Origin: Acidobacteriota bacterium
GTDB taxonomy: Bacteria; Acidobacteriota; Terriglobia; UBA7540
NCBI GenBank assembly: GCA_004298155.1
Contig: SCRD01000006.1
Coordinates: 1 to 64,000 of the forward strand
Reading direction: 5' to 3'
Length of the DNA: 64,000 nt
Below are positions 32,145-40,471 of the stretch, piece after piece. The notes beneath the pieces were generated by a model that was not told the DNA's origin, ran no database searches, and worked only from the letters and a program-made list of their open reading frames with translations. A program made the position numbers and the translations under genes. Each line of letters opens with the position of its first letter. Position 1 is the first letter of the stretch.

Positions 32145-33695
32145 ATGAGACTGCTTATGCGCCTGATCACCTCCGTCAACGAAATGAAGGCCCTCACGAG
32201 AGAGAATCGTTCCCGTGGCAGGTCCGTAGGGCTTGTTCCCACCATGGGCGCCCTGCACAAAGGCCACGTGAGCCTGGTTCGCCAGGCGAAGCAGCAGTGC
32301 GATGTGGTGGTGGTTTCCGTCTTTGTGAACCCGATGCAGTTTGGACCAGAGGAGGACTACGAACGGTATCCGCGCAATCTGGAAGAAGATTTTCAGCTAC
32401 TTAGTTCTTATAACATTGATACGGCATTTGCTCCTTCTTTGGAAGAAATGTATCCGGAGGGATTTCAGACGTTTGTGGAACCCGGGCCTTTGGCAAAAGT
32501 CTTCGAAGGGGCTTCGCGCCCGGGGCATTTTCGAGGTGTCTCAACAGTGGTAGTGAAGCTATTCAATATCGTGCAGCCGGATATGGCATATTTCGGCCAG
32601 AAAGATTTCCAGCAGGCAATCGTAATCCGCCGCCTCGTGGAGGACCTGAATCTGAACGTGCGGCTCGTCCTTTGCCCCATAGTGAGAGATGAGGATGGGC
32701 TGGCCATAAGCTCTCGCAATGTTTATTTGAAACCAGCTCAGCGAAAATCAGCCCTTGCGCTTTCCAGAAGTCTCTGGAGGGCTGAAGAGTTGATTCATTC
32801 AGGCGAGCCAGACGCAAGCAAAATTTTGGAGGAAATGCGCCACGTATTGCAAAGGGATGTCCGGCTGAAGATCGATTACCTCGCGATTGTTAATCCTGTA
32901 TCTTTTGAGCCCGCTTCCCGCGTTTCCGCAGGCGCAATTGCCCTGGTTGCAGCCTATGTAGACCGGGTCAGACTGATCGATAATACAATCCTTGGCCCTG
33001 TCGGCGCGTCTCAGGAAGACCGCTTGCAGATGGCCCTCTCCGCCCCGGCTGTTACCACGCCGGAGGCTAGAGCTCCTGGAATTGATGCAGAAGCCGTTAT
33101 TCACAAAATTGAGGGTTGCCGGGACTGTGCGGCTATTTCAACCATCCTTCTTCCGCCGCGCGAATTCATGGCCAGCTACATCAAGCGTGACTATCCCGAT
33201 CTCAGCACGGTCCGGACTGCTGTGATTGGGCGCCACAGCACCGCCAGGGCTGACAATTCTTTCTACCGGAACGGCGGACGGCCCAACCGCTTTGTAACTG
33301 CTCTCTACGACCTGCTCGGAATATCCGATTTTGCGGAATTCAAGAAGCGGTTTATTCTAACCGACATTATCCACTGCCACGCCTCAGGCCCGCGGATTCC
33401 CGACAAGGCAATGCGGAACTGCTCGCGCCACCTGCGCAATGAGCTTTCCCTTTTTCCGAACCTGCAATCTCTGGTGGTATTGGGCGAAGATGCCTATTGG
33501 GGAGTGCAACGGTTTCTTCTGGAGCGCGACCCAGGGGAAATTCAGTCTTTCTCCAATTTTATCGAACCAAACGGATGGGTGGAAGAGGAGGCCAGGATTT
33601 CAGCCCTGGACAACCGCACCGTCAAAATATTCTATTGCCACCATCCATCGCTAGGCTACCAGAGGAGCCCCTCTCTGGCTTCCGCGCTGGTCTGA
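32145..33695 (+). CDS. panC: Pantoate-beta-alanine ligase fused to a uracil-DNA-glycosylase-like domain
   Basis: A 516-residue two-domain protein. Residues 1-283 are a full PanC: VPTMGALHKGH, VVSVFVNPMQFGPEEDYERYPR, FYL-type FGQKDFQQ, and ISSRNVYLKPAQR. The rest (about 315-516) has the layout of an iron-sulfur family 4 uracil-DNA glycosylase. Cys325 and Cys328 (GCRDC) come first, then a degenerate first motif around 359-377, then TDIIHC with Cys411, Cys426 fifteen residues later (as in the CxPPGN...C block), a VVLGEDAYWG strand, and a CHHPS motif at 498-502 matching the HPS motif. No stop or frameshift separates the two parts. Whether the second domain excises uracil is unknown; its first catalytic motif is not canonical. 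Confidence 0.85.
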   Translation: MRLLMRLITSVNEMKALTRENRSRGRSVGLVPTMGALHKGHVSLVRQAKQQCDVVVVSVFVNPMQFGPEEDYERYPRNLEEDFQLLSSYNIDTAFAPSLEEMYPEGFQTFVEPGPLAKVFEGASRPGHFRGVSTVVVKLFNIVQPDMAYFGQKDFQQAIVIRRLVEDLNLNVRLVLCPIVRDEDGLAISSRNVYLKPAQRKSALALSRSLWRAEELIHSGEPDASKILEEMRHVLQRDVRLKIDYLAIVNPVSFEPASRVSAGAIALVAAYVDRVRLIDNTILGPVGASQEDRLQMALSAPAVTTPEARAPGIDAEAVIHKIEGCRDCAAISTILLPPREFMASYIKRDYPDLSTVRTAVIGRHSTARADNSFYRNGGRPNRFVTALYDLLGISDFAEFKKRFILTDIIHCHASGPRIPDKAMRNCSRHLRNELSLFPNLQSLVVLGEDAYWGVQRFLLERDPGEIQSFSNFIEPNGWVEEEARISALDNRTVKIFYCHHPSLGYQRSPSLASALV

Positions 33696-33714: not shown

Positions 33715-34173
33715 TTATAGCCTCAACGCCGCCAGCACCTGCTCGATGTGCCCGTCAACCTGTACACGAGGGAACACTGTTTTCACCCTTCCCTGCTGAT
33801 CGATGATGTACGTCGATCGCACAATGCCCATGCTTTTCTTGCCGTAGAGAGTCTTCTCCTGCCACACGCCATAAGCCTCAAGGGTCTTATGGTCAACATC
33901 GCTGACAAGAGGGAAGTTCAATTGATATTTGTCCCTGAATTTTGAAAGCTTTTCCGGCGGATCGGCGCTCATCCCAACAACCTTCGCACCAAGCTTCTCC
34001 AGGTCTTTTTTGGCGTCACGAAACTCGTGAGCTTCCCGTGTTCAACCAGGCGTATCGGCCTTCGGGAAGAAATAGAGGACCAGAGTGCTGCCTTTGTAAT
34101 CACTCAACTTGACCAGTTTGCCGGAATCAGATGGATGAGAGAAACCCGGCGCCTTGTCACCGACTTTCAGCAT
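33715..34173 (-). CDS. Selenocysteine-containing peroxiredoxin (Bcp type), UGA at the active site
   Basis: A 152-residue thiol-peroxidase-like protein reading through one in-frame TGA (34042-34044), codon 44. The context is ADTPG-U-TREAHEFRD, exactly where Bcp proteins have the peroxidatic cysteine (TPGCT...FRD). The frame is intact before and after, and all other family landmarks are present (KVGDKAPGFS, LVLYFFPKA, GMSADPPEKLSKF, STYIIDQQGRV). The protein contains no cysteine at all, so without selenocysteine it would have no redox residue; it also lacks the resolving Cys five residues later. AGGAG lies six bases before the ATG. A SECIS-like hairpin follows the UGA, and tRNA-Sec lies about 6 kb away. 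It follows the TPR gene by 33 bp. Confidence 0.85.
34013..34032 (-). promoter_or_regulatory. SECIS-like hairpin downstream of the UGA
   Basis: In the minus-strand transcript, GC-UCACG pairs with CGUGA-(C)-GC: five continuous pairs, one bulged C at 34015, then two more pairs, closing a 5-nt loop AGUUU (34025-34021). The loop begins 16 nt after the UGA and has a G in its second position, both within what is known for bacterial SECIS elements. It lies inside the coding region. Confidence 0.6.
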
Positions 34174-40376: not shown

Positions 40377-40471
40377 TGGCGGAAGTGTGTCGGAATCGAA
40401 CCGACCGATCCACCAGAGGCAGATCCACAGGATTTGAAGTCCCGGGCGGACACCAGCCCACATGCACTTCC
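40377..40471 (-). tRNA. selC: tRNA-Sec (anticodon UCA)
   Basis: A 95-nt tRNA with the bacterial selenocysteine-tRNA architecture. The acceptor stem begins GGAAGUG and pairs with CACUUCC; an eighth position is C opposite A. There is a six-pair D stem with a four-base loop, an anticodon stem CGGGA/UCCUG with loop CUUCAAA giving anticodon UCA, a long variable arm (about eight pairs, GAUCUGCC/GGUGGAUC, loop UCU), and a T arm GUCGG-UUCGAUU-CCGAC. The discriminator G is followed by an encoded CCA. It starts with GGAAG and ends CUUCCGCCA, as in E. coli selC. It reads UGA with SelB. selA, selB and selD are not in the window. Confidence 0.95.

Follow-up and report, generated by a model that had tools for sequence, protein, structure and literature searches.

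A pantothenate synthetase fused to a uracil-DNA-glycosylase-like domain with a substituted active site in one family of uncultured Acidobacteriota

Why would an enzyme of coenzyme A (CoA) precursor synthesis carry, in the same chain, a fold that reads DNA bases, a pairing that has no ready explanation? The question is raised by a gene at positions 32145–33695 of the window, our term for the whole 64,000-nucleotide stretch analysed here from an Acidobacteriota assembly (contig SCRD01000006.1); the gene and all of its parts given below lie on the forward strand. The initial annotation had described one uninterrupted frame encoding a complete pantothenate synthetase (PanC, pantoate–beta-alanine ligase) followed by an iron–sulfur uracil-DNA-glycosylase (UDG)-like domain, and our analysis bears this out. 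The single open frame of 516 codons plus stop translates into 516 residues with zero internal stops. Its PanC part (residues 5–284, 32157–32996) is matched by PF02569 over residues 7–281 of the fused protein with an E value of 9.6e-107 and 356.5 bits (cut-off 20.7), and by TIGR00018 over the full length of that model with 343 bits (cut-off 212.75). A linker (residues 285–309, 32997–33071), which reads ‘GASPE-LLQLA...’ in relatives, leads into the C-terminal domain, a UDG-superfamily four-cysteine domain (residues 310–516, 33072–33692). Because the fused gene is the sole PanC found in the 5.2-Mb assembly, its PanC half is predicted to be probably still active as a ligase making pantothenate.

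The same domain order recurs in relatives: a single frame encodes both parts in 27 of the 40 genomes of the order, the window's genome included; all 27 belong to the same family, and in one of them the gene is cut by a contig end. Fragments of the domain lie at contig ends in 3 further genomes of these 40. Identity among fused relatives falls to about 51% over the whole length, and one example, on the metagenome-assembled (MAG) contig JAJYLL010000007.1 (L002; the same contig as G334), is 80% identical. An assembly or frame artefact, for which separate genes in relatives had been proposed as the sign, is ruled out for practical purposes, as 27 genomes share the fusion on different contigs and in different sequences with no stop, and the two parts were seen as separate adjoining genes in none of the relatives. 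In close pairs, dN/dS is 0.07–0.14 for the C-terminal domain and 0.06–0.19 for PanC, and the domain is held by purifying selection about as strong as that on PanC.

In three members of the family (G308, G311 and G312) PanC is unfused and the domain is missing from the entire genome, and in the one genome of the sister family PanC likewise stands alone; the domain was not found in 6 other genomes of the order, all of which are 57–84% complete. A search of 32 genomes of other lineages gave zero matches, no relative of the domain was found in the viral contigs, plasmids and phages searched, and a phylum-wide profile search returned only short matches beyond the family, those checked being standard family 5 enzymes. 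Our search of the literature available to us found no PanC–UDG fusion. As far as searched, the fusion is confined to one family of uncultured Acidobacteriota. An unconstrained PanC tree does not decide between loss of the domain and earlier branching for the three unfused members, and a tree that forces the fused proteins into a single clade passes the AU test (p-AU 0.486). The unfused PanC proteins of G312 (L168) and G311 (L169) end in a stub of the linker, GAPDEELIELAFEAP and GASDEELIQLALSSS, respectively, which suggests that the domain was lost in these two genomes.

The surrounding genes had been taken as a hint of a link to DNA precursors or repair, and this hint proves weak. The order ruvC–ruvA–ruvB–folK–dNK–panB–panC, in which dNK is a deoxynucleoside kinase, is kept whole or mostly in the family members examined, including around the unfused PanC of G308. 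Within the family, the gene order seen at the fusion also surrounds an unfused PanC in L299, and folK–dNK–panB does so in L168; outside the family, dNK–panB–panC lies beside unfused PanC in L170, L177 and L178. The neighbourhood is therefore older than the fusion, or independent of it, and says little about function. Elsewhere, the same genome encodes a family 4 enzyme (G000:C16, motif GEGPG), a family 5 enzyme (G000:C18, GLAPAAHGANRTGRMFTGD) and a MUG/TDG-like enzyme (G000:C1, FNPG), all apparently intact, so ordinary uracil repair need not rest on the fused domain.

Directly downstream of the fused gene, on the reverse strand at 33718–34173, is a Bcp-type peroxiredoxin (AhpC/TSA, E 7.7e-41) whose active-site codons include a TGA in frame (DTPG-U-TREAHEF). 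As L002, L292 and L296 share this TGA, the gene very probably encodes a selenoprotein. Use of selenocysteine in this genome is supported by a selenocysteine tRNA gene at 40377–40471 on the reverse strand (ARAGORN; Rfam RF01852, 68.4 bits), which lies some 6 kb away from the peroxiredoxin.

Profiles and predicted structure agree that the C-terminal domain has the UDG-superfamily fold. PF03167 matches the C-terminal 207 residues of the window's protein weakly, with 23.2 bits (E 8e-5), slightly short of the curated cut-off of 24.3, and matches 24 of 26 relatives (E up to 1, best 6.5e-8), and two orthologues exceed the cut-off in whole-genome scans (G331, 28.2 bits; G327, 26.3 bits). In hhalign comparisons, family 5 aligns across the whole domain with a probability of 97.6 (E 3.9e-12), and a diverse family 4 set reaches 94.3 (E 9.8e-8). 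The first family 4 comparison had given a probability of 3.4, but its set of close relatives was insufficiently diverse (Neff 1.8); families 4 and 5 therefore lie closer together in this respect than that comparison had suggested. The initial annotation had placed the domain in family 4; the profile comparison prefers family 5, and motifs 1 and 3 match neither. Family 5 was itself rejected, being the best profile match and yet missing GLAP(A/G)AHG, GRxFTGD and HPSxQNTxTG, which are conserved in 24 family 5 rows.

Two structure models were built. The first used the window's protein and L002 only, with no UDG in the alignment; its confidence is low (pLDDT 50, pTM 0.52), and Foldseek ranks 1–6 are all UDG-superfamily structures, with E values that would not suffice on their own. 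The second, from a 48-sequence alignment that included 46 phage family 4 sequences (pLDDT 70.5, pTM 0.71), matches a family 4 structure (4zby) with Z 14.1 over 174 residues and family 5 with Z 13.4, a match that is partly circular because family 4 sequences sat in its alignment. Phage family 4 sequences were used because a search for phage family 5 sequences for this alignment found none. The predicted structure of the C-terminal part thus lands on the fold that had been proposed from its motifs.

The motifs GCRDC and TDIIHC, a cysteine 15 residues later and CHHPS are all present as first annotated, in the order and spacing of the iron–sulfur UDGs of families 4, 5 and UdgX (C-x2-C ... C-x14-C). 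The presumed ligands are the pair C325-x2-C328 (33117–33128; invariant in 28/28 and 29/29), C411 (33375–33377; 30/30), which is followed by an invariant H412, and C426 (33420–33422; 30/30), the counts including every relative that covers the position. We infer that these four cysteines bind a putative [4Fe–4S] cluster, which would hold the fold of the domain and could render the fused protein redox-sensitive.

The residues of the catalytic pocket are equally conserved in part, and several differ from those of known families. The alignment to family 4 is gapless from motif 1 through the helix that follows it and equates E41 with R363, N80 with D407, N89 with P416 and H155 with H500; the pocket geometry discussed here is drawn from alignment at 13–22% identity. 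In the family 4 enzyme Tth UDGa, N80 holds N3 and O4 of uracil (N123 in E. coli UNG likewise reads uracil), N89 positions water and H155 stabilises the leaving base (PMC5387724). Motif 1 (residues 362–366, 33228–33242) reads GRHST in the window's protein and GRD(A/S)P in most relatives, in place of the family 4 GE(G/A)PG, which confirms that the first glycosylase motif is atypical. The family 4 set has Glu, Asn and His at the positions of R363, D407 and H500 in 46/46 sequences, whereas residue 363 is Arg in 29/29 members of the present family and residue 407 (33363–33365), at the base-reading Asn position, is Asp in 30/30. P416 (33390–33392), which is not conserved, occupies the place of the water-positioning Asn (N89 in family 4, N120 in family 5; PMC5387724). 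Motif 2, CHHPSLGYQRSP (residues 498–509, 33636–33671), keeps the His-Pro of family 4 as H500–P501 in 29/29. An invariant Y374 (33264–33266) is a candidate base-stacking aromatic according to the family alignment and hhalign; the alignment to family 4 is shifted by two residues there, which makes the stacking role uncertain.

By the motifs tested, the domain fits neither family 4 nor family 5 nor UdgX. Membership of family 4 was rejected on the change of the motif 1 Glu to Arg, the change of N80 to Asp and the loss of N89. The earlier suggestion that uracil might not be cut by the domain, or that its target might be a different base, is supported. R363, D407 and H500 are fixed even in relatives only 43% identical to the window's protein over the domain, an argument for altered function over decay. 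The active site would accordingly not be a ruin of a UDG site; other residues, themselves strictly conserved, appear to have taken its place. They include a substitution that in UNG leads to cytosine excision: with N204D in UNG, or N123D in the E. coli enzyme, cytosine gets excised (PMC11289083).

Variation in motif 1 divides the family. Residue 364 aligns with D64 of UNG, a catalytic, water-activating Asp missing from families 4 and 5 (PMC5387724). Of 29 sequences, 22 have Asp here, and the other seven (four His, two Cys and one Asn) coincide exactly with a single supported clade in the PanC tree, to which the window's own protein belongs; every member outside that clade has D364. In most members, motif 1 carries Arg-Asp, the base-reading site Asp and motif 2 His. 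Both known water-handling residues, D364 and the alternative Asn, are missing from the window's clade.

We put at roughly even odds (a probability of about 0.5) the reading that the domain keeps a UDG pocket with changed chemistry, directed at a cytosine-type base, with possible excision in the GRD members and non-cutting binding in the window's clade. An Asp at 407 in place of the uracil-reading Asn would favour a base with a 4-amino group, as in cytosine, and H500 could remain able to stabilise the departing base through its O2. R363 stands in for the motif 1 Glu, and in most members of the family D364 could act as the catalytic Asp of UNG. Proteins of the GRD type may excise a cytosine-type base, more likely a modified or damaged one than the plain base. 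Excision of ordinary cytosine would be toxic, so the Asp at 407 need not mean cytosine, and another ligand is possible. In the window's clade, the domain would bind a flipped base or a nucleotide without efficient excision; it is probably a non-cutting binder there, as it carries His, Asn or Cys at residue 364 and has lost the alternative Asn.

Gene fusions mostly join parts that work together. We offer, tentatively, the broader proposal that the domain represents a new UDG-superfamily family whose pocket is of the cytosine type, built into the PanC of this one bacterial family so that vitamin B5 synthesis is physically coupled to recognition of a DNA base or nucleotide; the cellular role of the domain and its tie to PanC are what we infer, not what we observe. 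The family forms a natural series, from GRD through GRH/N/C to proteins from which the whole domain is absent, and function could be tested by comparing the purified proteins.

Three other readings were weighed. Somewhat doubtful is a role away from nucleic acid, in which the domain serves PanC as an iron–sulfur redox or oxygen sensor, or as a scaffold, and couples CoA-precursor synthesis to redox state. Replacement of the canonical catalytic residues, the coverage of uracil repair by the genome's family 4, family 5 and MUG enzymes, and fusion to the genome's sole PanC would all suit such a role; a pure scaffold, however, needs no invariant pocket residues such as R363, D407, H500 and Y374, and three family members manage without the domain.

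We regard as unlikely that the domain actively excises ordinary uracil or a deaminated base from DNA by means of another set of residues, its link to PanC being the incidental fusion of neighbours. Catalysis does vary between families of the superfamily (PMC5387724), and the domain retains the motif 2 His together with an RSP segment that resembles the RNP of family 4. In family 4, however, substitutions of N80 cost over 40-fold and N89A lowers activity (PMC5387724), the positions of N80, N89 and E41 are all changed in the domain, and the genome has three other UDGs.

Improbable, finally, is that the domain binds or acts on a free nucleotide or nucleoside, such as a cytidine nucleotide, and ties PanC to nucleotide metabolism. 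In its favour, cyanobacteria have a fusion of PanC with a (d)CMP kinase (NCBIfam PRK13477), an Asp occupies the base-reading position and dNK is a conserved neighbour, but dNK adjoins unfused PanC too. We know of no UDG-fold enzyme that acts on free nucleotides. The reading that we prefer remains a retained pocket with changed chemistry.

Comparison with known systems sets out what is shared and what is new. With family 5 UDGb (Tth UDGb, PDB 2d3y) the domain shares the four iron–sulfur cysteines, the best whole-domain profile match, the UDG fold (Z 13.4) and an LTxxxRC...C..hL..EL segment; it lacks GLAP, GRxFTGD, an equivalent of N120 and HPSxQNTxTG and, unlike UDGb, has GR(D/H), D407 and GYxRSP and is fused to PanC. 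With family 4 UDGa (Tth 1ui0, Sto 4zby) it has in common the fold (Z 14.1 for 4zby), the order and spacing of the cysteines and the His-Pro of motif 2, whereas E41 is replaced by Arg, N80 by Asp and N89 is lost, and in our comparison the profile match is weaker than to family 5. UdgX is similar in fold (Z up to 13.6) and iron–sulfur type, and its motif 1 GEQPG and its KRRIH loop with H109, as described in PMC10359453, are absent from the sequence of the window's protein. The PanC–(d)CMP kinase fusion (NCBIfam NF010004/PRK13477) likewise unites PanC and a C-terminal nucleotide-related enzyme in one chain, but its partner is a kinase without a UDG fold, and its match spans the PanC half only. 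A family-A DNA polymerase of phage phiLo (PDB 9qhs), residues 37–197 of which match the UDG fold of our second model with Z 11.3, offers another UDG-like part within a larger enzyme, the partner there being a polymerase.
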